Positions 32,276 through 64,000 of a stretch of DNA of 64,000 nt are shown here, in pieces. Numbering within the stretch: the first letter of the stretch is position 1; the number at the start of each line of letters is the position of its first letter. Both the position numbers and the translations under genes were made by a program. The stretch comes from Otis tarda. Taxonomy: Eukaryota > Chordata > Aves > Otidiformes > Otididae. Under the pieces are notes generated by a model. The model was not told the origin of the DNA. It did not search any database and worked only from the letters and a program-made list of their open reading frames with translations. The stretch covers positions 214,482,553-214,546,552 of the forward strand of contig CM048552.1 in NCBI GenBank assembly GCA_026413225.1. Direction: 5' to 3'.

Positions 32276-33999
32276 AGCCCCTCTGGTTTGGGGGTGGCTT
32301 TGATGGAGGTAAGCGCTGCCGTGCCGGCATTTTGCTGGATCCAACCGCCCGACGTGTCCCGGCTGGAAGAGGTAACGTGCTGTTCTCCCTCGGCGGCAGG
32401 ACTGTTTGTCCTGGGCGCTTTCCAGCGATCCTGTGTGGGACCGGAGCCGGCCAAGCCGTCCTGGGTGCAGAAGAGCTCCTTCACCCTGTGTCTGATGCCG
32501 GCCACGAGACTTTTAATTCCCCAGGAGCCGTTAGCAGCACGTCCCGCTCCGGAGCGCGGTGGGGGGGCCGCGGGAAGAAAGGATGATTTCAAGAAAGGAA
32601 GAAAAAAAAAAAAACGAAAACCAACCCCAAAAACTCGAGACAGAGAAGTTTTTCTGCCTCCAGCATCCCATGAGCCGCTGGGATGGGCAGGACACGAGCG
32701 CACACCCGTGCACACGCGTGTGCAGCAGCCTGGCACCGAGCAAGGGTGGATTTGGGGTGGATTTGGGGTGGATTTGGGATTCCAGCGGAGGTATGAGCAG
32801 GATGCCAGGCTGGCGACCCCTTGCATCTTTGTTTTCCCCATGGCTGCATCCAGGCCAGGGTGGAAAATTAGGTACGTTCACTGCCACGCTCTGTTTGTTG
32901 ATTTAGCAGCGGTTCGGATTAAACAGGAAAATATTGATTTAAATATAGCACCTCGCGGGAGCGGAGCAGTCGTGGGAACGTGGCCCCCCCGGCGCCCCAG
33001 CCGCTGCCTTCCCCACCTGCCGCTCCCCGAGCGGGGCGGCCGCACCCCGAAAAAAATCATCGGGGGTGGAGAGGGATTCCCGCAGGGGAAACATCAGGGT
33101 CACGTTCCCAGGGACGCTTGCGTAAAAACCCTCCCGTGCGTCCTCCCTCCGAGCTCGTGGTTCGTCCTCCAGAAGCTCGTCCTCGCTTCGGGGACGGCTC
33201 GGGGGCCGGATCCGGGCGCCGGCCAACGTTTGGCATCTTTGGACCTATTTATCCTCCCGTTCCCTTTCCTTAAATCTCCACGGAAACCAGGTTTTGGACC
33301 GTGGCTGGGAGTTTTCTCGTTTTTTGGCGTTACTGGAAATCTATAATTAAAGCCATGGCGGGGGGAGGATGGGGACGGGTAAATCCTGGCTTTCCCGGTG
33401 CCCGCGCCGATGGTTTGCCTGGTTTTTACTCCCCTGGCTCCGCCGTGCTCGGTGAAACTGGGAGGGGGGAAACTGAGGCACGCAGGCGGCCCCCGCTGCC
33501 CTTCAGAGGGAGGTTGGAGGTGGGATGGAGCGAGGAGGAGTTGGTTGGCATCGGGGGGACCCGCAGGTGACGCGACCTGTCAGCGGCACGGACCGACGCT
33601 GGGACCACCGGCACGGGGTCGAGCAACACACCTCGGGGGGTGAACCAGCCCAAATCTCCGCAACTCTGCCCGTTTTTGCCCCTTCCCTTCCCCAGTGCCA
33701 GGATTTTGAACGCCCTTGGGCGACGCAGATGATGTCTGGTCCCCTTTGAGGCCGAACGCCGCAGGGTAGCACCCCACGGGCAGAGGGTGGCCCTGCGACG
33801 GTGACCGTGGGGCACGATGCGGCCCCGGAGCGAGAGGGTTAGCGCCGGGCTGAGCTCGGGGCCGGGGGTTGGCCTTGGCCCGCGGCCGCCTGGCCCAAAG
33901 GTCAGGCTCTTGGCAGGACGCCGGGGCTGCGGTGAGGGTGGGAGGCCGGGACGGGTTGGGCGCGAGCTTCGCTTCCAGCCTGCGGAGAGACCCCCGGTC
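32276..33999. other. Intron 1 sequence, no gene
   Basis: Mixed GC-rich intron with three tandem copies of GTGGATTTGGG near 32748-32775 and a moderately CpG-rich part at 32950-33240. Open frames run through but show no recognisable protein. Confidence 0.45.
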
Positions 34000-35790: not shown

Positions 35791-36394
35791 CACGGAGACA
35801 CGGGTGCTGCCGCCGCGCGCGCGCGGCGATGCACGGGGATGGCGCAGGGCCGCACCCTCACGCCGTGCGCGTTGCGCAAGCTGCTGTGCGTTTCCCGGCA
35901 GCCTGCCCGGATCTCGGATCTGCTCTTGCGGGACGGCGTCTCCGAGGTGTGCGCGCGTTGGTACCCTCCTGCCAAACTCGGCTGGGATGGAGGCTCAGAG
36001 CTTCCCGGTCTCGTTGCTGCAGCATTAGTCCGTCCCTGCGAGGGTTATGGGATGGAGAGCCGTTCCCAGGGATGTTTCCCAAGCGGGAGGTTTCCCATGG
36101 ACGCCGACCCTGACGTGACGGGAGGGACTGGAGAGGTGATGCGCCGAGGTCTCCGCTTGCTGTGGCTTTGTCGCTGAGCTCCGGCGCCCGTCCGGCGCGG
36201 GCGGGTCCTGATGGGGCAGTTCCCGCAGCTTGGGAGCCGCAGCAGGGATTTCTCCTAAATTCAGGGTGGAGAAGGTGGTGCCGTTGCAGGAGGGAAGATG
36301 CGGTGGGGCAGCACTGGGGTTTGGTCTGTGAAGTTTCTTCCCCTTCTCCCAGGGCTTTCCCCTGGAAAGCAGGGGAAGACACTCACTTCCTCCC
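35791..36394. other. Intron 1 sequence, CpG-moderate, no gene
   Basis: A CpG-rich patch at about 35800-35960 (CCGCCGCGCGCGCGCGGCG) follows the array. No splice-bounded coding exon is recognised. Confidence 0.4.
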
Positions 36395-36985
36395 TTCCTT
36401 CCTTCCTTCCATGCATCCATCCACCCATCTCTAGCCACCAATCTCCCTCCACCCATCCACCTCCATCCACCCATCTCCATCCCTCTCCACCCATCTCCTC
36501 CCATTTCCATCTGTCTCCTCCCATTTTCACCCATCTCCATCCATCTCCTCCCATCTCCATCTCCTCTCATCTCCATCCATCTCCATCCCTCTCCACCCCT
36601 CCATCTCCATGCATCCATCTGTCTGTCCATCCATCCATCTCCTCCCATCTCCACCCATCTCCTCCCTTCTCCATCCATCTCCATCCGTATCCTGCCATCT
36701 CCATCCCTCTCCATCCCTCTCCATCCAGCTCCATCGCTCTCCATCCATCTCCATCCCTCTCCATCCATCTCCTCCCATCTCCATCCGTATCCTGCCATCT
36801 CCATCCCTCTCCATCCCTCTCCTCCCATCTCCATCCAGCTCCATTGCTCTCCATCCATCTCCTCCCATCTCCATCCATCTCCTCCCATCTCCATCCAGCT
36901 CCATCCTTCTCCTCCCACCTCCATCCATCTCCACCCACCCATCCAGCCATCCGCCTCCACCTATCCACCTCCACCCATCCCCACC
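36395..36985. repeat. Pyrimidine-rich (CCATCTCCATCCATCTCCTC)-type minisatellite
   Basis: About 0.6 kb of CCATC- and CTCC-based units, nearly all C/T/A on the + strand. The Met/Trp/Gly/Asp frame on the minus strand is its translation and not a gene. Confidence 0.96.
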
Positions 36986-37841
36986 ACCCGTCCAAAACAA
37001 CAGGCCCCACGAGCCATTCGGGCATGATTTTCAGAGCAGGCATGGTCCATCTTCCAGGACATCTCCTCCTGAAGGCATCAAGCCCAGCTTTGGGCACGAA
37101 ACCAAATACATTGTGATTTCCACCATGGTGTTTCCAGACCAGGATGTGTCCGGAGAAGAAAAATCAGCCACTTCCACCCCCTCTCCCTCAACGTGGCTCT
37201 TTTTAAAGCTCTGATGGTTGGTCCCGGTGGGGCTGTTTCTCCGGGCTCCCTCGGTTTCCATGGAGAGGATGGGTGAGGAATTTCAAAGGGAATGGCTCCA
37301 GTAAATGAACTCTTCTCTAAAAATAGCATGTTTGCTTTTGGGTCTTTGGGAACTGCGGCCCAACCAATGGGAGCGAGAACGAAAATCAGCATCGGGGTAA
37401 AAAAAATTCCACTAACTCGCACTTCATCCAAACTCCCGTCGGAGCTGCTGGGCTTCCGGGGGACAGGGGGCTGGTCCGAGCCTGCCCGGCCCCTGCCCGC
37501 AGTGGGACCAGTTGCTCCGTGACCATTGTTCCTGGTTGCCGGTGGGGGTTGTCCCCAAGCTGCGTGTCCCTCTGTGCCTTATACCGATTATTTTGAGTTG
37601 AATCTCTTTAATTTGAGGAGCAGAAGGGTTGATGACAGGAACACGTTGGGCTTGTGTGATCCCCATATCCCAGAGTCCCTGGGTGTGTCCCTTTTTGGGA
37701 ACCAGGGGATGGCCGCCACCACCTTCCACCCCACCGGTGACATCCAAGACACCAACGAACCCCACTACGACACTTCTGCAGGGATGTGTTGGGGACAGGA
37801 CTTCTGTGGTGGTGGCCACCACCAGGAGCCACCATCCCGAC
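36986..37841. other. Intron 1 sequence, no feature
   Basis: Unique sequence without recognisable exon or repeat. Confidence 0.45.
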
Positions 37842-38275
37842 TTGAGGATGACCACCTCCAGGTCCCCTCCAGAGAAGCCACCATCTCAACATGGGAACAG
37901 CCACTACCAGGTCCTCTCCAGAGAAGCCACCATCCTGACGAGGGGACGACCACCACCAGGTCCCCTCTAGAGAAGCCACCATCCTGACATGGGTATTGCC
38001 ACCACCAGGTCCCTCCTGGAGGAGTCACTATGCTGACATGGGGACAGTCACCACCAAGTTCCCTCCAGACAAGCCGTCATCCGGACGAGGACACAGCCAG
38101 CTCCCTTCCAGAGGAGTGACCATCGCAATGGGAGAGTGACCACCACCAGGTCCCCTCCAGAGAAGCCACCATCCCAACAGGGGGATGGCCACCACCAGGT
38201 CCCCTCCAGAGAAGCCACCATCCCAACAGGGGGACGACCACCACCAGGTCCTCTCTGGAGGAGCCGTCCTGACGT
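37842..38275. repeat. Minisatellite, core GACCACCACCAGGTCCCCTCC
   Basis: About eight units of roughly 50-57 bases, each with CACCACCAGGTCCCCTCC and AGAGAAGCCACCATCC blocks. Later copies (38150-38250) are the most similar to each other. Confidence 0.94.
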
Positions 38276-39079
38276 GGGGACCTCAGTGTCCCCACGTGGT
38301 TCCTGGGGCTGGAGAATGTGGAGTTGCTATTTGTGACCGCCCGTTCCCGAGCCCGCCGGTACTCTCCAAAAAAAACAAGAAGGGAGTTGTTTGCATGGGA
38401 AGATTGGCATCTCCAAGCTGGGATATGGTTTCCTGCTTTTTTTAGCTGGAGTAGCAGCAGACTCGTTGGCCTGCCCTGATTTGGCATCCTTCTTCTTGCC
38501 TTCTTTTTTTTTTTTTTTTTTTGGAAGGGTTTCATCCTGACCCCTCGGCAGAAACGCCGTCGCTAGCGGTAGGGGATCAGTTTTGGTCCTTTTCTTTTTC
38601 TTTTTGGTTGCCCAAAACCCCGGTGAGATGGGATGTAGATGGCTCAGAGCCTCAGTAAGCGGAGAGGGGACTCGTCCCTTGGTCGTCCGAACCCAGAGCA
38701 GGTCAGTAGAATCCAAAAATGTCCTTTTTTTGCCCCCCTCCCCCCAGGGTACCACCGTGACAATGACACGACAGGGAAGGCGTCACCTCTCGCCTCGCCG
38801 TGATGTGACGTGGGATGTGGGTGTTCCTGGTGAGGTCCGTGTTTCCCACCCCCCCGCCAGCTTCCTGCTGCCCCGGTTGCAGCTGTGTGGGACGAGGGGA
38901 CCTGCTGCGGGGCTGGGTGTCCGTGCGGCATGGGTGACGCTGGGGACGGAGGCTGACGTGGGTACAAAGGGGGACTTCTCCTGGTGGGTGCACCCAGGCT
39001 GCTGCCAAGGGCGTGGATCCAGGATTGGGGAGGGGGGCCATCAAAAGGGCTGAGGTAGGGGCATGGCACAGACTGCTCA
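38276..39079. other. Intron 1 sequence with poly(T)
   Basis: Contains a T run at 38505-38522. No gene is supported. Confidence 0.45.
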
Positions 39080-40110
39080 GGGCTCCTGGGTGCCCATGGA
39101 CTCCTGGGTGCCTGTTGGCTCCTGGGTGCCCATCAGCTCCTACGTGTCCATCAGCTCCTGGGTATCTGTCGGTTCCTGGATGCTCATGGGTTTGTGGGCA
39201 CCCATGGACTCCTGATACTTGTTGGCTCCTGAGTGCCCATCAGCTCCTGGGTGCTCATCAGCTCCCGGGTGCTCATGGACTCCTGGGTGCCCGTCAGTTC
39301 CTGGGTGCCCATCAGCTCCTGGGTGTCCGCCAGCTCCTGGTTGCATGTGGATTCATGGGTGTCCATGGACTTCTGGGTACCTGTTGGATGCTGGCCATCC
39401 GTCAGCTCCTCCGTGCCCGTAGGGTGCCCATCGGCTTCTGAGTGCCCACGGACTCTGGGCGCCCATGGGCTCCTGAGGGCCCATAAGCTCCTGAGTGTCC
39501 ATCAGCTCCTGGGTGCTTGTGGATTCATGGGTACTCATGGATTCCTGGTAGCTGTTGCATCCCGGGCATCCATCAGCTCCTGGGTGCCCATGGAATCTGG
39601 GTGCCCATGGACTCTGGGTGCCCATTGGCTTCTGGGTGCCCATGGACTCTGTTGGCTTCTAGGTGCCCAACAGCTCCTGAGTGCCCATAAGCTCCTTGAT
39701 GTTACCAGGTCCTGGGTGCCCGTCAGCTCCTGGGTGCCCATGAACTCCAAGATGGCTCCTGGCCATCCATCAGCTTCTGAGCATCCATCAGCTCCTGGGT
39801 GCCTTTTGGCTCCTGGATGCCTCTTGGCTTCTGGTGCCCCCAGAATTGTGGGTCCACATGGAGGTCTGGATGCCCATCGGCTCCTGGGTGCCCTTTGGCT
39901 CCTGGGTGCCCATCAATTCCCGGATGCCCTTTGGCTCTTAGGTGCCCATTGGTCCCTGGTGCCCATCAGCTCCTGGTGCCCATCAGCTCCTGATGCCCAT
40001 CAGCTCTTGGGTGTCCATCAGCTCCTGGGTGCCCAGTGCCTCCTGAATGCCTTTTGGCTCTTGGGTGCCCATTCGCTCTTGGGTGCCCATCAACTCCTGG
40101 TGCCCATCAC
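39080..40110. repeat. Minisatellite, core CTCCTGGGTGCCCATCAG
   Basis: About 1 kb of approximately 30-base and half-length units on CTCCTGGGTGCCCATCAG / GGACTCCTGGGTGCCC. It is highly variable in spacing, suggesting an old array. Confidence 0.95.
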
Positions 40111-40339
40111 CCCAAATGCCAGACGGGCGCCCTCCTGCGTACCCCAAGTTTGTTTGCACCTCTCTCACCCACATCTATGCCCCATGCCCACCAGGCACCC
40201 AGGGCACCTCCTACCCCCATGCGCCAGGCTGGCACCCAGCGCCGACGCCAAGGGGTGCCAGCGCTGGGCACCCTTCTCCTCCCTCTCATCCCCAAATCCC
40301 AATAACTATCGCTTCGGGGTGCCGCGGGACGCAGGGAGC

Positions 40340-40700
40340 GAGTGGGGGATCCGGGGACGCTGGCCAGTCGGGGTGGGGGGGTGATGTTACCTCCTCGCCC
40401 GGGGCGGGGGCCGAGCGTGGCGGGGGAGGCGGCGGCGGCGGCGGCGGGAGGGAGAAGAGCGCGGCTGACCTCAGCATCTGGAAAGCTGCGCTCTTGGGCC
40501 TCGGCCTGCGTGCCGGAAAACCGGAGGCAAAAAAAAACCCTTCCATATTTGGCGAAAGCCGCTCGAGGGCTCGGCAAAGGCTGGATGCGAACGGGGGGCC
40601 GGGAAAGCCCCCCGCCGCCGCCCGGGCTGCGGCGACACGAGTTTCGCACGGGCTCTGCAGATGCGGTGGGGGATGGATGGCGGCGGGAGGGGCGGGGGGA
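40340..40700. promoter_or_regulatory. Intronic CpG island with a perfect CArG box
   Basis: CpG-dense block with GGCGGC repeats (40428-40450). It contains CCATATTTGG at 40543-40552, which fits the SRF consensus CC(A/T)6GG exactly. It sits in ARHGEF17 intron 1. This could be an enhancer or alternative promoter; no linked exon is evident. Confidence 0.4.
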
Positions 40701-41624
40701 ATTGGGGTGAGCGTTGCAGATGGGGTGGGGTGGGGGGTGTAGGGTGGGGGGCACCCATGGGGTGCTGCCAGCGGCAGAGGGAGGACGCACTGAGATGCCA
40801 GCACGGTCCTGAGCCTCGGATTTTGGGGGGGGCGGAGGGAAAGAACCCCTTGCACCCCAACACAAACCCAATTCCGAGTGAAAATCCCATGGGATTGACA
40901 CATTTAGAGGATGAATTTTCGCGGCTTGGGGAAATGAGCCTCCCGCCTGCTCCCCACTCCCCATCCCGCCGGCGCTGCCGCTGACTGGGACGGCACTGGG
41001 ATGCCCAGCATCCTTCCCACCCTGCCCCAGTAGAGTCACTCCGGCTCCTTTTTTTTTTTATCCCTGGCTTTTTCTCACACTTCAAAAGCCAAACTACGGC
41101 CAGGCCGTGTCTTCCCGGGATGAATCACCGCAGCCGAGAAGTCAAAGAAGGGAAAAAAGCCGAATTCTCGGCACATCTGGTTGGGTCTGAGGCCGCCCTC
41201 CTCCTCCTCCTCCTCCTCCTTCTCCTCCTCCTCCTCTTCCTCCCCAGTCCCGGAGGCGGTTGTTGCCGCTGGGTTTTCTCCATGGGAGCATCCCTGAAGA
41301 AATGGAGGCTCCTCTGCGAACTGGGAGCCTGGGAAAAACCACGGCGGAGGGAAAAGCAAACATCTCCAACCCCCAGAGCTGCGAATAAACACTGGGGTAT
41401 TATTAGTAACCGAAGCGGGGCTGAATCAGAGCGGCTGATTTATGCTCTTATTTCCTTTTGAGAAGTTACGCTTCGGAAAACGGCTCGGATTTTTCTTACC
41501 CGTGGGAGAAGAGCGAGCGGCCGGGCGGGGAGGGGATACAGCCCCGGATGTGATGCTGTCCAGGTTCCTCGTGTTCCCGTGGGATGCGGAGGGGGGTTTC
41601 CCCCAGACGTGGGGTGTGGTGGTC
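40701..41624. other. Intron 1 sequence with (CTC)n
   Basis: Holds a CTC trinucleotide run at 41197-41240 and a T run at 41050-41060. No exon is supported. Confidence 0.45.
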
Positions 41625-43745
41625 CCGGGGATGGAGGGGACTGGTACGCAGGAATGGGGTGGCTGGTATTCAGGGATGAGGAGACCAGTAGTAGGGATGG
41701 AGTTGATTGGTACCCAGGGATGGGGTTACTGGTGCCCAGGGATGGGTGACTGGAACCCATGGATGACAGCGGCTGGTACCCAGGGATGGGGTTACTGGTG
41801 CCCAAGGATGGCAGCAGCTGGTACCCAGGGATGGGGCTACTGGTACCCAAGGATGGAGGTGACTGGTACCCAGGGATGGAGTTGGCTGGTACCAGGGATG
41901 GGTGACTGGAACCCATGGATGACAGCGGCTGGTACCCAGGGATGGGGCTACTGGTTCCCAAGGATGGAGGTGACTGGTACCCAGGGATGGAGTTGGCTGG
42001 TACCAGGGATGGGTGACTGGAACCCATGGACGGCAGCAGCTGGTACCCAGGGATGGGGTTACTGGTGCTCAGAGATGGAGGTGACTGGTACCCAGCGATG
42101 GCAGTAGATGGAACCAGTGACGGAGGTGACTGGTACCCAGGGATGGGGCTACTGGTGCCCAAGGATGGAGGTGACTGGTACCCAGGGATGGAGTTGGCTG
42201 GTACCAGGGATGGGTGACTGGAACCCATGGACGGCAGCAGCTGGTACCCAGGGATGGGGTTACTGGTGCTCAGAGATGGAGGTGACTGGTACCCAGCGAT
42301 GGCAGTAGATGGAACCAGTGACAGAGGTGACTGGTAGCCAGGGATGGGGTTACTGGTGCCCAAGGATGGAGGTGACTGGTACCCAGGGATGGAGTTGGCT
42401 GGTACCAGGGATGGGTGACTGGAACCCATGGACGGCAGCAGCTGGTACCCAGGGATGGGGCTACTGGTGCTCAGAGATGGAGGTGACTGGTGCCCAGCGA
42501 TGGCAGTAGATGGAACCAGTGACGGAGGTGACTGGTAGCCAGGGATGGGGTGATGTGGCATAGGAAGGGGGTGACTGGTACCCAGGGATGGGTGACTGGT
42601 GCCCAGGGATGGAGGTGACTGGTACCCAGTGATGGAGGTGATTGGTACCCAGTGATGGAGGTGACTGGTGCCCAGGGATGGAGGTGACTGGTGCCCAGGG
42701 ATGGAGGTGACTGGTGCCCAGGGATGGGGTGACATGGTCTGGAAAGGAGGTGACTTGTTCCCGGAGATCAAGAGGACTGGTGCCCAGGGATGGGGAGACT
42801 GGTACACAGGAATGGCAGCAGCTGGTACCCAGGGATGGTGGTGACTGGTATCCAGGGATGGATGACTGGAACTCGTGGATGGCAGTGGCTGATACTCAGG
42901 GATGATGGTGACTGGTGCCCAGGGATGGAGGTGACTGGTGCCCAGGGATGGAGGTAGATGGAAACAGTGATGGACATGATTGGTACCCAGGAACGGGGTG
43001 ACATGTCCTGGAAATGAGGTCACTTGTTCCCAGAGGTTGAGAGGACTGGTACCATGGATGGGGAGACTGGTATCCAGGGATGGTGGTGGCTTATACTAGG
43101 GATGGAAGTGACTGGTACTGAGGGATGGCAGCAGCTGGTGCCCAGGGATGGAGTTACTGGTGCCCAGGGACGGAGGTAACTGGTACCCAGGGATGTGTGA
43201 CTGGAACCCATGGATGGCAGTGGCTGATAGCAGGGATGGAGGTGACTGGTGCCCAGGGATGGAGGTGACTGGTGCCCAGGGATGGAGGTAGATGGAACCA
43301 GTGATGGAGGTGATTGGTACCCGGGGATGGGGTGACATGCCTCAGAAAGGAGGTGAGGGGTACCAAGGGATTGGGGGTTGGGTACCAACGGATGGGGAGA
43401 CTGGTACCCAAGGATGACAGCGGCTGGTACCCAGGGATGGGGTTACTGGTGCCCAAGGATGGCGGTGACTGGTGCCCAGGGATGGAGTTGGCTGGTACTC
43501 AGGATGGGTGACTGGAACCCATGGGTGGCAGTGGCTGATACCTTGGATGGGATGACTGGTGCCCAGAGACAGAGTGGCATGCTCAGGGATGCAGGGACTG
43601 GTACTCAGGGATGGGGATGACCAGTACCAGGGATGGAGTGGCTTGTACCAGGGATGGGGGTTACTGGTACCCAGGATGGAGGTGATTGGTACCCAAGGAT
43701 GCCAGGGGCTGGCACCCAGGGGTGGCAGGGACTGGTACCCAGCAA
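41625..43745. repeat. GGTACCC minisatellite with 201-bp higher-order unit
   Basis: About 2.1 kb of units near 30 bases on CTGGTACCCAGGGATGGAGG. From about 41930 to 42540 the monomers are organised into a higher-order repeat of exactly 201 bases (copies begin near 42108 and 42309, plus a partial copy before). The 527-codon frame on the minus strand is an artefact. Confidence 0.96.
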
Positions 43746-45380
43746 AGCAAGGTGTCTGCTGGCTGCCATCCCTCCACCCGTGTGTAGGACATACGACAGC
43801 ATCGTTTATCCCGAGGCGAAGATCGGATGGGTTTTCTTTCTGAGTCTTTTTTTTTTTTTTCCCCAGGGTTTTGGTAGAAATAAAGCTGAGGATGTGTTAA
43901 AATTTTTAAGCGTGGGAGATCGCCGTGCCCTGCGGGCTGCTTAGAGCGGGGGACTATCCCCACGGACCAGTGGCTCCCACTATGTCCCAGCTCCCTCTAG
44001 TGGGATCTGCCCTGGGAAGAAGCATCCAGCGAGAAAAAAGGTGCAGAAATCCCAGTTCCCCCCAGTTTCTTCCAAACTGGGAATGAGCGTCTAAAGGAGG
44101 TGCGGAGATTCCTAGCATAACCCTACTACGAGACTCTAGAGAATCCCCCCTCAGCAGTGCGGAGCGTTGGGAGCCGGCGGTGGGGACAAGCCGTAATGAG
44201 GGAAAAACAACTTGTATTTATTTATTCTTAAAATTTTGGCACATTTTGGAGGGGTGGGAATAATTTTGCTGGAAGCAGGGCTAGCTCCGCCTTTGGCAGC
44301 TGCGGGAAGGATGAGCTGGGAAGGCCCCGAGCGGCAAATCCTGCTGCCAAAAGGATCCAAAACGCTCCATTTTTTTTTTCCTAAAGCTGTATTTTTTTAC
44401 CGCGAAGTGAGGTCAAAACCCCCACTACAGCTCCCCCAGGGTATGGCTGAGGCCAGACACAACTCGTTACACCGCTGGCCTGGGAAAAATGCTGCGTGTT
44501 GTGGTTCCGGGAGGGGAATTTCGGGGTGAAACGGTGTCTCTGGGGATCCAGAGATTCCTCTTCCCATGGGATGTGCTTTTAGCAACCCAGGCGGGTGGTG
44601 ACAGCACGTGTGACACCCACCCGCGCGTCCCCGGCTTCAGCGACCCAGTTCCCACCGGCAGCGGGATTTGGGGTGGGGAAGTCCTTAAAGTAGCATCGTT
44701 ACATGCACTGATGTGTGCACGGTCTCAGCTCTCAAGGGCCAGCGGCTGCAGTGACGGCTGAGATTCCTCATGGATTTACATCCCTGCTCTCCCTTTCCCC
44801 CAAATCCCAATTTTCCTTTTAAAAATGACGGTTTTAGGACATCTCCGTCGATGCCTTTTTGTTTGCAGGAGGGGGGATACGATTTGCCAGCTCCTTTATT
44901 TAATATTTTCAGATGTTTTTAAAATCCCCCGGGGATGCTCAAGCTCCTCCTGCGGCGCTGCGCTCGGGTGGGGAAAAGTAAAATGATGGATTTGCACCCG
45001 GAGGCTTCCTAAAAAAATAAAAAGAAGAGAACTTCCGTCCTTCTTCGGGAAGCCAGGCGGGGTCGGGAAAGTTGTATTTCTGATGCCAGAGGGAAAAATT
45101 GTGGGAAAACCCCCTCTCTGAGCCCCCCCATCTGGGATTTGGGGTGCTGCCGAATCGTCCCCCCCCAAATCCCCAGTGCTGGATCCGCTCCGTCTTTGGA
45201 TTTTTGGGATCATCCTCGCGGTGCTGGTGTTTGGGATGGGGGATGAGGCACTTGGCTCCATCCCAAGGGATTGTGATGCTTTTCCCGGGAGGGGTTTGGG
45301 GTTTTTTTGGGAGGGAACACCCAGGTTTGCTGAAAAAAAAATTTTAAAAAGGAAAAAAAAAGGCTGATCCGAAAGGAAAT
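43746..45380. other. Intron 1 sequence, no gene
   Basis: Unique sequence with T and A runs (43849-43861, 45351-45361). No splice-bounded coding exon is recognised. Confidence 0.45.
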
Positions 45381-45387
45381 CTAAAGG

Positions 45388-45495
45388 TGTTTACAAAGAG
45401 CCGCGCTGCTAAAAATAACCGGCTCATATTTTAGACGGCCCTAAAAATAGGCAGCGCTGTTGGAGTGGCCAAACACTCCCAGGAATTTCCTGTGG
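45388..45495. promoter_or_regulatory. Candidate intronic enhancer: two MEF2 sites with FOX and NF-kB-like motifs
   Basis: Motifs within about 105 bases: TGTTTAC at 45388-45394 (forkhead); CTAAAAATAA at 45409-45418 and CTAAAAATAG at 45441-45450 (both fit the MEF2 consensus YTA(A/T)4TAR); and GGAATTTCC at 45482-45490. Motif matches are direct observation; enhancer activity is inference. Confidence 0.3.
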
Positions 45496-46074
45496 GCCGC
45501 GGGCTGCGCGCAGGGGGGTCCGGGCTCGGCGGCCGGCGGGGACGGCCGGCATCCCTCCGGCTTTTTCTTTCCTGGGTGAAGGCGAGATAACCTCCGCTGG
45601 GCCCCTCGATGCGCAGCGGGATCCAGCCTGGCTCCTTCCCTGGTTTGGGAAGCGATGGGTTTAACCCTTCTCCATCCATCTTTCCTCTCTGATGACACAC
45701 AAAGAGGTTGGGTGGGTTTGAGAGTGCTTTTAAAACCCATCAGCAGAAAGCTCAACCTTAATAGTAGACACTGGAGAATCTACTCACGCGGTTAAATTAA
45801 AGGATTGTCTCAAGGGAGCTGTGTGGGGAGTGGGGATGTGGGAAGGACCCTCTGTGGATGGAAGGGTGGAGGGATCCCCCTGCTCGCCCCGGGGACAAGC
45901 GATCCCACGGGAAGGCTCAAGGGCGTTGCTGCACTGGGTCACGCGTCGCCGCGTCGCCACGTCGCAGCGGCGTCGCAGGCCGGCTGGGGTTGCGACGGCG
46001 AGGAGGCAGGGATTGCGAGAGGAACGGATCTGGGATCGCAACCCAGAGGGAGCTGGAATCGCCCGGGGTGGCGA
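45496..46074. other. Intron 1 sequence, partly CpG-rich
   Basis: CpG-rich at 45495-45550 and 45940-46000. No coding exon is supported. Confidence 0.4.
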
Positions 46075-47490
46075 TCCTGGTGGGATGTGGGATTGGAACC
46101 AGAATGGGTCTGGGATTGCAGCACAGGTGGGTCTGAGCCCAGATTGGCAACCCACATGGATTTGGGATTGCAACAGGAATGGATCTGGGATTGCAACCCA
46201 GGTGGATCTGGGATTGGAACCCAAACAATCCCAGATTTGCAACCCACATGGAGCTGGGATTGCAACAGGAATGGATCTGGGATTGCAACCCAGGTGGATC
46301 TGGGATTGGAACCCAAACAATCCCAGATTTGCAACCCACATGGATCTGGGATTGCAACAGGAACGGATCTGGGATTGGAACCCAGGTGGTTGGAACCCAG
46401 GTGGATCTGGGATTGGAACCCAAACGAGTCCAGATTTGCAACCCACATGGATCTGGGATTGCAACAGGAATGGATCTGGGATTGCAGCCCAGGTGGATCT
46501 GGGATTGGAACCCAAACGAGTCCAGATTTGCAACCCACATGGAGCTGGGATTGCAACAGGAATGGATCTGGAATTGCAACAGGAATGGATCTGGGATTGG
46601 AACCCAGGTGGATCTGGGATTGGAACCCAAAGGAGCCCAGATTTGCAACCCGTATGGAGCTGGGATTGCAATGAAATGGGTCTGGGATTGCAGCCCAGGT
46701 GAAACAGGGATTACAACCGCAAAGGATCTGGGATTGGATCCCAGAATGGCTCTGGACTGCAACCCAGATGGACCTGGGATTATAGCCCAAATGGATTTCA
46801 GGATTGCAGCCCAAATGGGTCTGGGATTGGAACCCGGAATGGCCTGGATTGCAACCCAGATGGATTTCAGGATTGCAATCCAGATGGGTCCAGGATTGGA
46901 ACCCAGATGGGTCTGGTTTTGCAGCCCAACTACACCCGGCTTGCAAACCAGATTAATTTGGGATGGTGACCCAAATGAGCCTGGGATTGCCACCCAAATG
47001 GGTCTGGGATTGGAACCCAGATGGGTCTGGGATTGGAACCCACATGGGTCTGGAATTTGCAACGCAGATGGGCCCGAGGTTGCAGCCTTTGTGGGTCTGG
47101 GATTGCAGCCTAAATGGATCTGGGATTCCAACCAAAATGGGCCTGGGATTACAACAGAAATGGGGCTGGGATTACAACCAAAATGGATCTGGGATTACAA
47201 CCGAAATGGATCTGGGATTCCAACCAAAATGGGCCTGGGATTACAACAGAAATGGGGCTGGGATTCCAACCAAAATGGATCTGGGATTACAACAGAAATG
47301 GATCTGGGATTCCAACAGAAATGGGGCTGGGATTACAACAGAAATGGGGCTGGGATTACAACAGAAATGGTTCTGGGATTACAACAGAAATGGGTCTGGG
47401 ATTCCAACCAAAATGGGTCTGGGATTACAACAGAAATGGGTCTGGGATTCCAACAGAAATGGGGCTGGGATTGGATCCCAGTTGGGTCCA
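46075..47490. repeat. Minisatellite, core ATCTGGGATTGCAACC
   Basis: About 1.4 kb of roughly 21-base monomers (GGATCTGGGATTGCAACCCA). The right half (47110-47460) is a purer subfamily on TGGGATTACAACAGAAATGG. Several adjacent units form larger periods. Long frames on both strands are artefacts of the 21-base period. Confidence 0.96.
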
Positions 47491-48169
47491 GGATTGCCCC
47501 AGCAGTGGGTCTGCAGCCACTGTGCTGCTGCAGAAGGAGCTGCAGGTGCAAACGGCCTCGTTACCCCAGATGCAATTAGCTGCAGCGGGTGCAGCACGGG
47601 CACCCATCCCACCCACGCCGGGTGCAGGTCCCTCGTCCCCGATCCCAGTGCCAGGGTGTATTTAAGGCAGCTGCAGCTCCCCTCTTGTAATATTACATGC
47701 ACTGAGTTGGCCGTTCTCTGCCGCGCACCCCGGGGAAGGTGCTCATCATCCTCATTTCCAGGAGGAAATTTACTGGCTGCAACGGGAGGACGCAGCCCTG
47801 CTGCACACCGTTGCTGTGGAAACGGGGCGAGCGGCTAATTAGATTTAATTAACGAAGCAGGAGGGGAGCCTTAGGAACAGATCCGGGCAGGGGTGCAATC
47901 ACCCGGCGAGCAGGGGTGCGGGTACCGAGGTGCTGATGTGGGAAGGGGGGAGGAAGCGGGCTTGCTCCATGCCTCAGTTTCCCCATCTGCGAGGGGGAGG
48001 TGGTACCCAGGGGTTCCATCCTGGATGGGGACCCCGAGGATGCTGAGCACCCCAACCCAGCACCATCTGTACACCTCCCCTTCCCTCCCCCCCCAAAAAA
48101 AAAATAAATCACACGCCTCAAAAAAATCATCGCATCCCTCCAGCGCAGCATCATCCCCCCCCCCCCCCA
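47491..48169. other. Intron 1 sequence, no gene
   Basis: Unique sequence with a C run at 48158-48170. No exon is supported. Confidence 0.45.
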
Positions 48170-48570
48170 CCGGCAGGATCCTGCATCCGCGCGCGTCTCT
48201 GCGTGCGTGGCGCTGTGTGTGTGCGCGCGTGGGCACGGCTCTGCCTCCAGCTCCCGTCGCTCTCGGCCGCCCGCGCCTCGGTAGCACCCGGGGCCGGGGA
48301 CCCGCGTGCCGCCGCGGACGCAGGCGCGCGCATCCCGCAGCCGTTCTGCAGCGCTTGCTGTATATTTTTATTTATTTATTTATTTATTTATTTTATTTAT
48401 ACACGCACTGAACCTTATCGATATAAATAGCTCCTCTATTTTATTTCCCTCCTTGCTGCATCCCAACGCAGCGTTCCGGCTATTTTAAAGGGAAAACCTG
48501 GCTATATATCTATCTATATCTATAAAAAAAATATATATATATAAAATTTTTTTATATTCCTTGGGCCGCG
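48170..48570 (+). promoter_or_regulatory. CpG island, TTTA repeat and TATA-like element: candidate internal promoter
   Basis: 48175-48350 is CpG-dense (CCGCGCGCGTCTCTGCG). Then come (TTTA)n at 48366-48402 and a TA-rich tract at 48500-48555 with TATAAAAA at 48531 and TATAAAAT near 48539. The TATA-like elements lie about 60 bases before the ATG of the coding-like block at 48598. Promoter function is inferred from layout only. Confidence 0.3.
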
Positions 48571-48597
48571 TGGGCCGGACCGACCCCCGGGACCCGC

Positions 48598-48762
48598 ATG
48601 CTGCAGATGGTGAGGACTCTGGCGCAGTTCACCATCGCGCTGGAGGACATGCGAGACATCGGCGACGGCGTCGACGCGGCCTTCGCCGCCGCCTCCGGCC
48701 TCGGCGGGGTGGCCGAGGAGCCGCCGCCGGAGAAAGGTTGCGGCAATCGCGGCGGGACCGAG
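48598..48762 (+). other. Coding-like block: candidate alternative first exon of ARHGEF17
   Basis: Fifty-five codons from ATG at 48598. By hand count, third positions are G or C in 50 of 55 codons while second positions are in only 28 of 55, a strong coding-type periodicity not seen in the flanks. The peptide starts MLQMVRTLAQFTIALEDMRD and looks helical. The block ends at a GAG|GTGATG donor in phase 0, and ARHGEF17 exon 2 at 51412 begins in phase 0, so the two could join in frame. The ATG context is weak and the donor is only moderate at +5. I do not recognise the peptide. It could also be an unrelated small gene or chance. Confidence 0.3.
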
Positions 48763-50109
48763 GTGATGCCGAAATGGGATGGCGGGGGGTCTTGGGGATG
48801 GGGAGTTGGGGGGGGGGGTTGTGTGGGATGGGGGAGGTTCTGTGGGTGCGGGGCGCGTGGATGCGTCATGTTTGGACACGTGTGCGCCCCGTAGAAGCCG
48901 GCACCTGCGGGGTCTGGACCACGATCGCCGTGGCAACCGTGCCTCCATCCTCATCCCTCGGCCCGCTGCCGCCCACCCTGGGGGTTCTCCGGATCGCGGG
49001 GAGAGGGGGATGCTCCCACCCGGAGAGGGTGATGGGGGGGCAGGAGTCATCGCTACCCACGCCCCCACCTCCACCTCCGGATGCTGATTTACACCGCGGC
49101 GGCGTGGGCCGGTGGGGAAAAGCCCCCATTCCCGTGGCGGTGGGGGGAACTGGGAGACCGGAGCAACATCAGGAGCTTTGCTGGGGTCAGGGATGCAGTG
49201 GGGCGCATCCTGCCCGCGCTCGGGTACCGCTTCATCCCGCCAGGGTGGTGCGTTCCCCCCAGCTCCTGCTCATCCCAGTGGGAATTTCCCCCCCCCCACG
49301 GCTGCTGCTGTGGTGGAAAAAAAAAAAAATCCCCTCACCACCGGCTGGGCCTCATCCTGCGTCTCCTCGCCGCTGCGAATCGCCAGCGGCTGGTGCGGCG
49401 TGCGGCGCTGGGCCCCCGTTCAGCTCACCGCTCCGTCCCTTCGCTTCCGTCCCGAACTGGGACGGCTCCAGAAAATGCTGGGAGAGTCGGATGGAGGTGG
49501 GGAGCTACAGGTCGTGCGAGGGTTGGGGAAACTGAGGCAGGGCAGGGTGGGGGTCAGGCGCTCTGCGCTCCTAAGGCCCATCGTCCTGTGGGTGCCCTTC
49601 AGCCCGTAATTAACAACTAATTAATTGAGTGGTGAGAGTGTTAATAAACTTCAGGCTGTACCGAAGCTGGGAGATCTCAGCCGGCGGCCCCGAAGACCAC
49701 CGCGTCGCCGTATTTTGGGGGGGTGGGGGAGAAGATTTCCTGGGGGGAGGCTTTGACCCGTCACCGTCATATTTGGCTCTGGACATCCGTTTGCTCCTCG
49801 CTCGGCTGAAAACACCGATATCGGCGTGGTGGGCGCGTGGGGAAACTGAGGCACGGCTCTGTTCCCGAGCACTGGGCAGGATCGCCGGCGGGATGGTGGT
49901 TTCCACCGTGGTGGGGACGGTTGGGTTCAACAGTTGGGTTAAGGCTTCTTCCTTAACCCAACCTGGTTGGGTTGCAGGTGGCTTCGTGGCACCAGTGTCA
50001 CCGCTGGGAGCACTGGGGGACGTGGGCTCGTCCCATGAGGAGATGGGGGACACGAGAGTTTGGTGGCTCCAACAGCCCAGAAGGGGAACCTGGTCCCATC
50101 ATGCTGTGG
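48763..50109. other. Intron 1 sequence, no further exon recognised
   Basis: G- and CpG-rich in parts (48780-48830, 49090-49150), with an AT-rich patch at 49605-49650 (TAATTAACAACTAATTAATT). Confidence 0.4.
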
Positions 50110-50865
50110 TGGCCCTGTGGGACATCTCTGCACCCAGGGCTGTTGGGGTGACCAAGCACCCAGGAACTTTGGAGGCTTCTTCTCCATAGGGGTTTTTGGG
50201 GCACCTGCAGCATTCGGGGTGGCTGAGCACCCATGGCCTTTGGGGTGTCCAAGCACCCATGGCTTTTGGGGTGTCTCACACCCGCAGCTTGGGTTGCCCA
50301 AGCACCCAGGGCCCTTGGACGGTCTCCATGAACAGGGACCATTGCTGCGTCTCCATGTCAAGCATCTCCCTTCCCAGGGCCAGTGGAGGGTCTGTACACC
50401 CCAAATTTTGGGTGTGCCTTACACCCAGGGCCTTTGGAGCATCTCTGCACCCACAACTTTTGGGGTGTCTCACACCTAGGGTCTCTGGAGACTCTACGCG
50501 TGCAAAACTTTAGGGTTCTCTGTGCACCCAGGGTACTTGGAGCATCGCTGCACCCAAAACTTTTGGGATATTGAGCACCCAGCATCTCTGGACCATCTCT
50601 GCACCCAAAACTTTTTGAGTATCTCTACACCCGAGACCCTTGGAACAACCTCCACATGCAAAACTTTTGGGGTGTCTCTGCAGCCAGGGCCCTTGGAGCA
50701 TCTCTGCACCCAAAACTTTTGGGGTGTCTGCACCCAGGGCCCTTGGAGCATCTCTGCACCCAAAACTTTTGGGGTGTGTCAGCACTTGGAGCCTTTGGAC
50801 CATCTCTGCACCCGGAATTTTTGGCGCGTCTCACACCTTGGGCTCTGGAGCATCTCGGCCCTAGG
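50110..50865. repeat. Hairpin minisatellite, core CACCCAAAACTTTTGGGGTG
   Basis: About 0.75 kb of units near 51 bases, with CTCTGCACCCA, AAACTTTTGGGGTGTCT and GGGCCCTTGGAGCAT blocks. CCCAAAA-C-TTTTGGG is a near-perfect inverted repeat. The unit differs from the 45-bp arrays at 29-32 kb but shares the CCCAAAA/TTTTGGG arms. Confidence 0.94.
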
Positions 50866-51411
50866 CTGAGCTGCGGGGGCGTCCCCCCAGGTGCTGCGTG
50901 TGAGGAGGGGTCTCCAAACCCTACAACTGGGAAGACCCCCACCCATCTGCCTCCCAAGGTTGACGGACCATCCCACACCACCACCTCCCCGTGCCCCCCG
51001 CCGCCCCCGTTAATCCCCTTCCTGTGGGACCACAGCCCGGCGCTGGGGTGCCCGGGGTGCTGGGCGGGAGGCGAATTCCTACGGGACCTCTCCGAGCGGA
51101 GCCGTGCCGGAGAGACGGAGGGCGTCGGGACCGACCCATGTAGGGCTGTGAGATCCAGGGCGGGCTCCTGACGCGGCCGTGGAGGAAACCAGGCGTCTCT
51201 GTACGCTCGGTGTCATGTACTTCCTAATCCTCCCGGATTCCTCCATCGGGGTGGAGAGGGAGCGGAGGGAAGCTGGACGCCAGCCGGGCTCCTCCGGCGT
51301 TCAGCCGCCCCGCTGAGCCCCCACACCGGCACCGCCACCCGCTACGTTGCTCCCCTTCCGTCGTGTCACCCCCCTGAAACTCATCTCGTCTTTCTTTCCA
51401 CCCCCGGGTAG
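50866..51411. other. End of ARHGEF17 intron 1
   Basis: Unique CpG-moderate sequence ending in a pyrimidine tract and CCCCCGGGTAG, the acceptor for exon 2 at 51411/51412. Confidence 0.6.
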
Positions 51412-51489
51412 GACATGAGGAAACACGTCATCATGACGCTGCTGGACACGGAGCAGTCCTACGTGGAGTCCTTGCGCACCTTGATGCAG
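51412..51489 (+). CDS. ARHGEF17: ARHGEF17 exon 2: start of the DH domain
   Basis: Twenty-six codons, phase 0 at both ends, flanked by GTAG and CAG|GTAACG. It encodes RKHVIMTLLDTEQSYVESLR, the first conserved helix of the DH domain, with the typical T-E-x-x-Y-V pattern. It joins exon 1 and exon 3 without a frame break. Confidence 0.97.
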
Positions 51490-53774
51490 GTAACGCGGCG
51501 CGGCCGGGGACGCGGCACCCCGAACCACGTCATGATGGGACCCCAAGTTGGACCGCCGGTCGTGGGCGCTCTCCCAACGCTGATGTGGGATCGGGGACGG
51601 GTGGCAGTGGGGATGTTGGGGACAGCAGGACCGGAGGTGGGAGCAGCGTGGTGATAGTGTCAACAATGGGGTTTGGGGGTCACCTCTGCCCCCCAAATCA
51701 AGCCTGTGACACTCCTGGTGGGTTGTCACCTGATGAGTGCCATGTCCCCAAGCCCCTTCCTGTGCTTGCCCCCCAAAAGCTCTTCCATGTGTTGCACCCT
51801 ATCTCCTAGTCCGTTGCCCCGTCTCATGACGGGGGACCCTTTACACCCCCCGTTCCTGTGTCCCCCCGTTTTCTACTCAGCGTCGTCACCCGCAGCCACG
51901 GGCCAAGGGTTTTTCTCTGTCCTTTTTTTTACTGAGCTGGTTCCAACCCCCGCCTTGGGAGCAGCCTGGCCGGAGGGTCCACCCCACGTTTCAGATGTTA
52001 ATGAAGATGTTTCAGAAGGTTAATGGTGGTCAACGCCCTGGAGGCTAGGTCATGCTGGCGTAGGTGTGGGTTGTCCGGGTGGAAACGCCGAAAAATCAGA
52101 GCTCTGCTCTGCTCTATGCAGAGTGGCGCCTGTAGGATAGCTGCTGGTCACGTCCGTGAGGAGATGGGGTGCCCAACACCTGGCTTTCCCAAGAAATCCC
52201 CTGCCAGGATGCCCCCGCGGTGGACCCAGATACGCCCTGCCAGATGTTGCTGCAGGAGAGAAGGACCTTTGGAGGCTGCTCCTCATGCAGATGTTGGCTC
52301 GGAGGGGCGAGAGGACCTTGGCGCTGGGGCTTCTCTGGGGGAAAGCTCTACAGGGTTGGGGGTCGGGTGGTGTGCCTGCTGGTCTTGGCATGGACAGAGG
52401 CTGTCCCATGGGCTGTGTCCTCATCTGAGGTGGGACGTGAGGCTGGTTGGAGAGAGGGCAACCTTGCTGGAGCTCACTGGTTCCCCACTGGAGGGACTGA
52501 CTGGGCACGAGTGGGAGCCACAGGGCATTAATGCCTCAGCTCCTTCCTGTGGGACACGTTCTGGCATGGTAGAACCAGGGGGACCTGGCTTTCTGGGGGT
52601 GGGCCACAAGCTCCAGACACCCTCAGCTCCCTGTCTTAGCTGGGACAAGGGGCTTGGATCCGTGATGTGGCCCAGTGGCATGGAGCGCCGTGGCTACCAG
52701 GGACAGGGTCCACCTGGGAGCATCAACTTCCAGCCAAACCAGATGGTGCTCTTCTTCCCCGTCTGGTCCTCACTCCCCCAGTTTTATAGTGGGTGGGATG
52801 GCACAGCCCAGTCCAGCTCCTGCTGGAGAAGTTGGCCACAGTAGGGCAGGCGAGACTGGTTACGAGCCTCAGGATTTGGCCCTTCTAACTCGAGTCTTCA
52901 CAAGATACCAGCCGTCAGTCTGAGGAACCTCATCCTTGGGGGATGACTCCTCCCTCGGCACCTCGGATGGAGGTGTCTGAAGCAGCGTGAGGTGGGTCCT
53001 GTCCTCACCGCGCAGCTCCACGGTTCCTCCCAGCGTCCTGAAAGACACCAGCACCCCGTGCTGGTTGGGCTGAGGAGGAGGCAAAGCTTGAGAAGACCTT
53101 CATCACGCCGCATCCCTTGCAAATCCAGCTCTCCCATTCCTGGGAGCACTGCTCCCCTCCGCAGCTCTGCCCCATGGTGGGTCACAGCAGAGCTGCCCAC
53201 CCAGCCTTGCAGAGGACCCACTCTTGTCCCACTTCTCCTACTGACCCTGAGCATCGCTTGTTGACCGTTGCCCAAGAGATGCTGCTGGTGAGGTGGTCCA
53301 GGGCTTGACCCAGTGCTTCCACCCCCTCCTGGTCCCAAACGCCCTAAATCCCACTGGGAACTCACCGACTTTTGGCTCCCAGGGTCGTGCTGCCGTGATT
53401 CCCCAGCTGGGTCAGGCTCTGTAGCAGATGGAGGTGACCAAAGCTCATGACAGCAGAGGTTTGGAGCTTCCCAACCCCATATCTGGAGGACAGAGGATGC
53501 CGTGTTTTGGAGGTTCCTCATGCAGACCTGCCCTGCTCCCCACTCTGCCGTGGGGATGCACTGGGTGGGATGGGACCCAGGAGGGCTGAGGTGCAAAACC
53601 TACTGGGACCCAGCGCTGCCTGGTTCCTCTGATGGGCCCCGCAACCCGGCGTTCGCTGGGGGAACCCCTTGCTGCAGGATGCCACCGATCTCCGTATTGA
53701 CCGGGGTTGAAAAATTCGTGTTGGGTGGTGGGAAAAGAAATTACGGGGACGCCGATGCCTCCGCTTCCCCGCAG

Positions 53775-53957
53775 GGTTACATGAAGCCGCTGAAGCAGCC
53801 GGAGAACTCGCTGTTGTGCGACCCGTCACTGGTGGACGAGATCTTCGACCAGATCCCCGAGCTGCTGGAGCACCACGAGCAGTTCCTGGAGCAGATCCAC
53901 GACTGCGTGCAGAACTGGCACGAGAAGCAGAAAGTGGGCGACCTCCTCGTGCAGTCG
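53775..53957 (+). CDS. ARHGEF17: ARHGEF17 exon 3: DH domain
   Basis: Sixty-one codons between CCCCGCAG and TCG|GTAGGT, phase 0. Contains CDPSLVDEIFDQIPELLEHH, the second DH helix region that abuts the Rho switch surface. Confidence 0.97.
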
Positions 53958-56174: not shown

Positions 56175-56755
56175 CATGGGAGGCTGCAGATGGATGGATG
56201 AGTGGGTGGAAAGAGCAGAGGGATTGAAAGTGGACGGAAGGACGGATGAAGGGATAGATGGAAGGACGGATGGATGAAGGGATGAAGGGATGGATGGAAG
56301 GATGGATGTATGGATGGATGAAGGGATGGATAGAAGGATGGATGTATGGATGGATGAAGGGATGGATAGAAGGATGGATGGATGGATGAAGGGAAGGATA
56401 GAAGGATAGATGGATGGATGGATGGATGGACGAAGGGATGGATAGAAAGATGGAAGAACGGCTGGCTGGATGGATGGATGAAGGGATGGATAGAAGGATG
56501 GATGTATGGATGGGTGAAGGGATGGATAGAAGGATGGAAGAACAGCTGGATGGATGGATGGATGAAGGGATGGATAGAAGGATGGAAGAACGGCTGGATG
56601 GATGGATGGATGAAGGGATGGATAGAAGGATGGATGTATGGATGGATGAAGGGATGGATAGAAGGATGGATGTATGGATGAATGAAGGGATGGATAGAAG
56701 GATGGAAGAACGGCTGGATGGATGGGAGGATGGACAGATGGATTGGTGACAGATC
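56175..56755. repeat. GGATGGATGAAGGGATGGATAG minisatellite in ARHGEF17 intron 7
   Basis: About 0.6 kb of TGGA-based units of 24-28 bases, purine-rich on the transcript strand. Met/Asp/Gly/Trp frames here are artefacts. Confidence 0.96.
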
Positions 56756-57147: not shown

Positions 57148-57257
57148 AAGGCAGTGGGTGGGAAGAAGGACCGCTCCTTCTTCCTCTTCACGGACCTGCT
57201 GGTGTGCACCACGTTGAAGCGCAAGTCGGGCTCCCTCCGCCGCAGCTCCATGAGCCT
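57148..57257 (+). CDS. ARHGEF17: ARHGEF17 exon 8: PH-like region
   Basis: 110 bases between TTCCGCAG and CCT|GTGAGT, ending in phase 2. Encodes KKDRSFFLFTDLLVCTTLKR, the beta-strand core of the PH domain after the DH helix bundle. Confidence 0.97.
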
Positions 57258-57367
57258 GTGAGTACCACCAGGCTTGGGGGCACCTACCAGGATCAACCCA
57301 CGTCTTTAGGGTGCTGGGGACACGGGTGCAGCTCAACCGTCTCCCTTCCAACCTTCCAACCTCGCAG

Positions 57368-61107: not shown

Positions 61108-62290
61108 AGGGCGGCCCCTAGGCAGATGGATAATCCCATGTAGAAAGATGGATAATCCCATGTAGAAAGATGGATAATCCCATGTTGAAACAGGGCAACC
61201 CCCGGGCGTCAGCGTAATCCCACAGGATAAGATCCAATCCCCTGGATGGCTTCATAATTCCATGCAGGAATAGGGCAGCTATACATAATCCCGTGTAGAA
61301 ATCGGGCAGCCCCATGGCAGCTGCATAATCCCATGTGGAAATTAGGCAGCTCCTGGGCGGTGGCGTAATCCCGTGCAGGAACAGGGCAGCCTATGGGCGT
61401 GTGTGTAGTTCCGCATAGGAATTGAAAAGTCTCGGGGCATCTGTGTAATCCCACGTGGAAACAGGGAAACCCTCGGGCATGTGCGTAAACCCACATAGGA
61501 ATGAGGCAGCCCTTGGGGCAGCTGCATAATCCCATGGGGTAATAGGGCAGCGCCTGGGTGGCTGCATAATCCATAGTGTGGAAATAGGAAGATGCTTGGG
61601 CATCTGCATAATCCCACTGTGTTACAGAGAATCCCCTGGATGGTTTCATAATCCCATGTGGGATGGCTTCATAATCCCATGTGGCAATAGGGCATCTGCA
61701 TAATCCCATGCAGAAATTGGACAGCCTCTGGGTTGCTGCGTAATCCCACGTGGAAATAGGGAAACCCTTGGGCATCTGCATAATCCCACTGTGTAACAGG
61801 GAATCCCCTGGATGGCTTCATAATCCCATGTGGGATGGCTTCATAATCCCATATAGGAACAGTTCATCTGCATAATCCCACTGTGTAACAGGGAATCCCC
61901 TGGATGGCTTCATAATCCCATGTGGGATGGCTTCATAATCCCATATAGGAACAGTTCATCTGCATAATCCCCCTGTGTAACAGGGAATCCCCTGGATGGC
62001 TTCATAATCCCATGTGGGATGGCTTCATAATTCCATATGGGAACAGGTCATCTGCATAATCCCACTGTGTAACAGGGAATCCCCTGGATGGCTTCATAAT
62101 CCCATGTGGGATGGCTTCATAATCCCATATAGGAACAGGTCATCTGCATAATCCCACTGTGTAACAGGGAATCCCCTGGATGGCTTCATAATCCCATGTG
62201 GGATGGCTTCATAATCCCATGTGGGATGGCTTCATAATCCCATATGGGAACAGGTCATCTGCATAATCCCAGGCAGGATTCAGGCAGCCC
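61108..62290. repeat. CATAATCCC minisatellite with 92-bp higher-order unit, ARHGEF17 intron 19
   Basis: About 1.2 kb of roughly 40-base monomers built on GCATAATCCCATGTGGAAAT and GGATGGCTTCATAATCCC. In the right part, GTGTAACAGGG-type landmarks recur at 61791, 61883, 61975, 62067 and 62159, an exact 92-bp period. It occupies most of the intron. Confidence 0.97.
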
Positions 62291-63009: not shown

Positions 63010-64000
63010 GGGAGGTGGTAATTTGGGTGGGAGGGGCTAGTTTGGGGTGGGAGGGGCCAGTTTGGGGTGGGAGGGGCTAGTTTGGGGTGGGAGGAGTTTT
63101 GGAGGGCCAAGGTGTGGCACCTGGTGAAGTGGTGGTGTTTGGAGGATGCTGGTGGGGAGGACGCTGGGATGATGCTGGTGGGACGATGATGCTGGGATGA
63201 CACTGGTGGGATGCTGGTGGGAGGATGCTGAGATGATGTGGGTGGGATGATGCTGGTGGGAGGATGCTGGGATGGTGCTGGTGGAATGATGATGGTGGGA
63301 TGACACTGGTGGGATGCTGGTGGGAGGATGCTGGGATGATGTGGGTGGGATGATGCTGGTGGGACGATGCTGGGATGGTGCTGGTGGAATGATGATGCTG
63401 GGATGACACTGGTGGGATGCTGGTGGGAGGATGCTGGGATGATGCTGGTGGGATGGTAGTGGTGGGAAGATGCTGGTGGGATGGTGCTGGGATGATGCTG
63501 GTGGATGATGACAGTGGGCTGATGTTGGCATGGTGCTGTGGTGGGATGATGATGCTGGGAGGATGATTCTTGGATGATACTGGTGGGAGGATGCTGGAGG
63601 ATGCTGGAGGATGCTGAGATGATGCTGGTGGGATGATGCTAGGAGGATGATGCTCACATGATATTGGTGGGATGCTAGTGGGAGGGTGCTGGAGGGTTCT
63701 GAGATGATGCTGGTGGGACGGTGCTGGTGGGAGATGCTGGGATGATGCTGGTGGGATGGTGCTGATGGGAGATGCTGAGGTGATGCTGGGATGGTGCTGG
63801 TGGGATGGTAGCGGTGGGAAGATGCTGGTGGGATGATGCTAGGAGGATGATGCTCAGATGATATTGGTGGGATGCTAGTGGGAGGGTGCTGGAGGGTTCT
63901 AAGATGATGCTGGTGGGATGGTGCTGGTGGGAGATGCTGGGATGATGCTGGTGGGATGGTGCTGATGGGAGATGCTGAGATGATGCTGGTGGGATGGTAG
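63010..64000. repeat. GATGCTGGTGGGATG minisatellite in ARHGEF17 intron 20
   Basis: Four copies of TTTGGGGTGGGAGGGGC at 63010-63095 are followed by about 0.9 kb of GATGCTGGTGGGATGATG-type units continuing to the window end. G-rich on the transcript strand. The array may extend past the window. Confidence 0.96.

Follow-up and report, generated by a model that had tools for sequence, protein, structure and literature searches.

The 64-kb window analyzed here, by which we mean the whole stretch of DNA under study, carries a P2RY-like receptor open reading frame (ORF) followed by ARHGEF17, two genes whose neighborhood is a vertebrate arrangement. The receptor ORF (19526-20653) encodes a rhodopsin-family receptor, and its nearest PDB entries are P2Y receptors 4 and 2. 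The gene that follows, which we take to be ARHGEF17 from its similarity to the human protein, has the layout of this exchange factor, with Pfam-detected RhoGEF and PH domains located downstream of a long first exon. Exon 1 (25110-28079, plus strand), whose start ATG was picked by eye, consists of 990 codons that yielded zero domains in a Pfam search, and ends in phase 0 at the donor GTG/GTAAGT. The 23.3-kb intron 1 separates it from exon 2 (51412-51489, plus strand; DMRKHV...LMQ), where the DH region starts and whose phase-0 acceptor GGGTAG/GACATG (51411/51412) scores 7.6 with a simple, unfitted matrix. The RhoGEF (DH) domain is detected in a part of exon 3 (53775-53957, plus strand; the 3′ end is taken from the reading frame and is not fixed), which corresponds to positions 23-80 of the Pfam profile (E 2.1e-7). 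As this exon begins at profile position 23, positions 1-22 are assigned to exon 2. The PH domain (Pfam PH_19) is found further downstream at 57151-57258. ARHGEF17 is an activator of RhoA, RhoB and RhoC that, according to excerpts of the literature, is linked to endothelial junctions and to the risk of intracranial aneurysm.

Minisatellites crowd the introns (28100-48000, 56231-56743, 61773-62220 and 63141-63996), and Tandem Repeats Finder returns 53 rows with a score of at least 150 over the window. For example, a 23-nt unit is repeated across 41620-43742, and two arrays of 45-nt units cover 29149-30228 and 31508-32270. The open frames of these minisatellites run for hundreds of codons and imitate genes; in the nested minisatellite at 34100-35165 (periods of 94, 175, 270 and 445 nt) both strands stay open over ORFs of 568 and 626 residues. 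The array at 61773-62220 contains approximately 4.9 copies of a 92-nt unit (98% match), and is apparently a very recent expansion in the 3′ part of the gene. Note also that GAAGA is repeated 49 times almost perfectly (99% match) at positions 6828-7075.

Towards the 3′ end of intron 1, at 48598-48762 on the plus strand, lies a block of 55 open codons, MLQMVRTLAQFTIALEDMRDIGDGVDAAFAAASGLGGVAEEPPPEKGCGNRGGTE, which the initial annotation had put forward as an alternative first coding exon. Guanine or cytosine occupies 40, 28 and 50 of its 55 first, second and third codon positions, respectively, and the earlier counts for the second and third positions agree exactly with our recount. The ATG at 48598 and the phase-0 end of the block at GAG/GTGATG are likewise present in the sequence as described. 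An in-frame TAA codon (48523-48525) is found upstream of this ATG, the context of which is weak, with C at both -3 and +4. The block is single-copy, since its only DNA match in the genome (1,198,220,595 bases in 116 contigs) is the block itself; by that test, it is therefore neither a transposon nor a processed copy. At the protein level, the predicted leader retrieves from the same genome itself and a second locus (L003; 40% identity, E 1.09). This second match is taken as chance, and on inspection the DNA surrounding it shows nothing resembling a related exon. An Rfam search of 47000-52000 returned zero matches.

The three-base periodicity of the block was evaluated using a cut-off that requires an open 165-nt window with G or C at no fewer than 50 of 55 third positions and an excess of at least 22 over the second positions. 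On both strands of the 64 kb, 170 of 44,666 open windows pass this cut-off, and they form eight clusters. Seven of these are on the plus strand, three in the P2RY-like ORF, three in ARHGEF17 exons in their proper frame and one at 48598-48762, which is the only plus-strand spot in ARHGEF17 intron 1 to pass; the sole cluster on the minus strand lies opposite the P2RY-like ORF. Permutation of the bases of the block reproduced its periodicity in only 2 of 200,000 cases. Intron 1 also contains 41 plus-strand and 15 minus-strand segments that run from an ATG to a donor (phase 0, donor score of at least 6.1, at least 50 codons), and a third-minus-second G/C difference above 0.2 is seen in only two of them, both of which correspond to the block, read either from 48598 or from 48607. 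When 400 introns were simulated with matching local composition, none contained an equally extreme ATG-to-donor segment, and looser cut-offs raised this number to six of 400.

The performance of the same cut-off was calibrated on 19 other 10-kb stretches of this genome, hand-picked and in many cases taken from small contigs (190 kb in all, with 101,991 open windows), where 39 clusters pass. A Pfam match at E 0.001 or better was obtained for 19 of the 39 clusters (15 above the curated cut-off), including one collagen match to a simple repeat. Inspection by eye identified six clusters as simple repeats, the collagen case included, and one as antisense to another cluster, whereas the remaining 14 are without a Pfam match, several of them adjoining matched exons. 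The cut-off finds real exons well in complex sequence, yet it is fooled by repeats, and passing it is not proof on its own because at least seven of the 39 calibration clusters are repeats (six) or antisense (one). These cases, together with the fact that the block came from one window selected for oddities, speak for a non-coding origin of the block, either as a GC-rich stretch with chance periodicity or as a decayed exon. However, the block is not repetitive, and the simulated introns contain nothing as extreme, making a non-coding origin unlikely in our judgment.

The direction of coding was addressed by scoring codon usage, with 1,686 codons from the window, the block excluded, as the training set; the corresponding scores of the other clusters are circular, because those exons sat in the training set. 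The plus frame of the block obtains +26.8 bits versus intron and +12.8 bits versus local base composition, and the mirror antisense frame obtains 29.1 and 7.1 bits, so one of the two measures favors antisense. This lead over the intron background, and the location of the antisense frame within an ATG-started ORF (48520-49050), are consistent with the block coding for part of another transcript, belonging to the opposite strand or to a separate gene. Nevertheless, the comparison with local composition favors the plus frame, and the mirror frame scores high by construction because the two frames share third positions. Base preferences at the first codon position also favor the plus strand and are RNY-like, with G in 53% of plus versus 28% of minus codons and purines in 73% versus 52%. 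As regards a separate gene, the leader has zero matches in Pfam and no real match in the PDB, where the best one (E 0.38) is to a tag region. It is quite improbable that the block belongs to another transcript. Relatives of the leader were also sought, as a long shot, in bacterial and viral collections, where 590 and 106 stretches matched the pattern and none was confirmed. The lack of a relative in these collections, in the PDB and in the rest of the genome counts against the alternative-first-exon reading preferred below.

Scored per ten codons, the plus frame is positive from 48616 through 48746, and stands at -6.6 and lower from 48766. The ten codons 48736-48765 give 0.6 bits versus intron and -2.5 versus local composition. 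The coding signal fades, and then stops, at the proposed GAG/GTGATG donor (GTGATG at 48763-48768, plus strand, phase 0). With the simple, unfitted matrix, this donor scores 6.2, compared to 10.1 and 7.2 for the donors of exons 1 and 2, and roughly 4% of the 1,260 GTs in ARHGEF17 intron 1 score at least as high. The weak points conceded earlier, the ATG context and the +5 base of the donor, which is a T, do hold. So does the proposal that the block can be joined in frame to exon 2, as both 48762 and the acceptor at 51411/51412 are in phase 0. Statistically, there is good support for a coding block that terminates at a phase-0 donor.

The 5′ edge of the coding signal is less sharp, and the ATG at 48598, the ATG at 48607 and an acceptor at this place are not told apart by it. 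Inside the block, and absent from the initial annotation, we find a second in-frame donor, ATG/GTGAGG (48609/48610; GTGAGG at 48610-48615, plus strand), which directly follows the ATG at 48607-48609, is also in phase 0 and scores 9.1 with the same matrix, a level (9.05) reached by only four of the 1,260 GTs of intron 1. Splicing from this site would yield a leader of only four residues, MLQM, and since this donor outscores the one at 48762/48763 (9.1 vs. 6.2), the short leader is a live rival and the chief reason to doubt the 55-residue one. The first exon would then end at 48609/48610, either encoding MLQM or being mainly untranslated, and the 55-codon form would be minor or not made. However, the strong codon bias of the following 51 codons is left unexplained by such a splice, and unused donor-like words can occur in coding exons; we give this possibility a small but real chance. 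The block could also be accommodated in the long form, as a cassette exon of 52 codons (48607-48762) between exons 1 and 2, which would make a promoter unnecessary. Between 48491 and 48607 the sequence contains a single AG, that of the CAG at 48604-48606, and phase 0 on both sides would keep the frame. Nonetheless, with this simple matrix the corresponding acceptor (48606/48607) scores -1.7, versus 7.6 and 7.1 for those of exons 2 and 3, a value equalled or exceeded by one in three of the 1,326 AGs of the intron, which leaves the cassette exon a slim chance. When the alternative first exon, the short leader with a choice of splice sites and the cassette exon are taken together, plus-strand coding of the block in at least one transcript is quite probable.

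The sequence upstream of the block is a 200-nt AT-rich simple-sequence island (48361-48560; 26% GC), made of TTTA, TATC and TA repeats and located between two CpG-rich stretches. Six of the eight plus-strand TATAWAWR matches of the window fall within this island, far above the 0.23 predicted by base shuffling, which never reached six in 2,000 trials, but a TA repeat yields such words unaided. The TATA-like element that had been placed at 48531-48546 is indeed present, although it is part of a TA-rich simple repeat (48521-48545, plus strand), a palindromic AT repeat with five overlapping TATAWAWR words from 48521 to 48538. The cleanest TATA-box-like element upstream that was detected in a pattern scan is TATAAATAG (48422-48430, plus strand), itself weak and in low-complexity surroundings; the ATG at 48598 is the first one downstream of it, an ATG scan finding none other from 48422 to 48598. 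A CpG island was considered as promoter evidence and dropped, as the window contains 43 CpG-rich stretches distributed throughout, and CpG-rich sequence is therefore no promoter mark here. The earlier claim of an internal promoter is thus weakened by the position of its TATA element within the TA repeat, and retains the TATA-like words upstream, all of which are of low complexity.

We consider the block a good candidate for an exon not yet annotated, and our preferred reading, to which we attribute a probability of about 0.5 on the basis of its sequence features, takes 48598-48762 as the coding portion of an ARHGEF17 first exon alternative to exon 1. Transcription would start at an intragenic promoter a short distance upstream, with the element at 48422 as best candidate, and the transcript would splice from the phase-0 donor 48762/48763 to exon 2 at 51412, thereby swapping the 990-residue N-terminal region for a leader of 55 residues. 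If so joined, the leader would stand directly before the DH domain, as initially proposed, since RhoGEF profile positions 1-22 fall in exon 2. The leader had been described as helical; AlphaFold2, run on the leader alone as a single sequence, predicts with modest confidence (mean pLDDT 72.9, pTM 0.35) a helix over residues 2-35. This helix is not unusually amphipathic, its moment being attained by 9,268 of 20,000 shuffled sequences, and the idea of an amphipathic helix was dropped.

Published human constructs, as described in excerpts of two studies, allow the function of such a short form to be predicted. Residues 81-135 of human ARHGEF17 bind F-actin, a protein devoid of the N-terminus spreads diffusely, and RhoC activation fell severely when the N-terminus was deleted or carried a point mutation (PMC3404065). 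The N- and C-terminal regions each bind and inhibit the DH-PH module, and activity was seen only with the bare DH-PH construct; DHPH-C, which is absent from actin fibres, was inactive alone and was stimulated by G-beta-gamma, which displaced the inhibitory contacts (PMC8703085). As the predicted isoform corresponds in layout to DHPH-C with the leader added, it is expected to be actin-free and G-beta-gamma-gated, and not constitutively active. We infer that, if transcribed, spliced and translated as proposed, the short form would lose F-actin targeting and N-terminal autoinhibition, together with the F-actin-binding segment and the N-terminal inhibitory contact, and would keep the C-terminal inhibitory contact with its G-beta-gamma gate, acting as an exchange factor for RhoA that responds to G-beta-gamma and is either cytosolic or recruited to membranes. 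The suggestion that this form could be constitutively different in activity or location is therefore only partly upheld: without its N-terminus the protein is delocalised and only one of its two inhibitory contacts is left, but DHPH-C is inactive without G-beta-gamma, and N-terminal deletion lowered RhoC activation. More speculatively, the short product of a second promoter may be a natural counterpart of DHPH-C in ARHGEF17 of birds, or more widely. It would be F-actin-free and gated only by G-beta-gamma via the C-terminus, the leader helix could provide a new regulatory contact, and the two in-frame donors would allow a leader of either 4 or 55 residues; this full picture is possible, although we hold it to be doubtful. 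Should the isoform exist, promoter choice could separate the tethering to actin from the exchange activity, and models built on full-length ARHGEF17 alone miss the short form. If it does not exist, the locus is a useful case for RNA checks on strong codon periodicity in GC-rich introns.

In the excerpted literature on ARHGEF17 (isoforms, alternative promoters, p164-RhoGEF, chicken and start sites), the exon was not recognised among the matches listed, which is not proof of its absence. The available part of PMC7881162 mentions intron retention in ARHGEF17 and not the block 48598-48762, and that of PMC13215057 deals with other isoforms. Western blots of human and rodent lines are described, in the accessible text of PMC3404065, as revealing only the 222-kDa full-length ARHGEF17, with an antibody that may or may not detect a form without exon 1. 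The same text reports an N-terminally shortened ARHGEF17 cDNA product of 1510 residues, p164-RhoGEF, which resembles the predicted short form in this respect; it differs in that it was judged to come from an incomplete cDNA, retains some of the N-terminal region and lacks a first exon of its own (PMC3404065). The closest equivalents in architecture are the DHPH-C and delta-N constructs, which correspond to the predicted short form minus the leader. As far as the excerpts go, delta-N is diffuse and off actin, and DHPH-C is inactive alone and stimulated by G-beta-gamma (PMC3404065; PMC8703085), although these constructs are artificial, human and without the leader peptide.

There are precedents for alternative first exons among RhoGEF genes. 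Kalirin is a RhoGEF gene in which, according to the part of the source available, alternative promoters give rise to functionally distinct isoforms (PMC5385350), but it is another gene and its isoforms have been established experimentally. A further likeness is offered by the RhoA exchange factor NET1, which in the accessible text has two promoters and isoforms that differ in their localisation and role, the proximal promoter producing NET1A, a RhoA-GEF isoform that is shorter and differs at its N-terminus (PMC5898269). NET1A was demonstrated by RNA and protein work, whereas the ARHGEF17 short form is a prediction from sequence, and, in contrast to NET1A, it would drop an actin-binding and inhibitory region.
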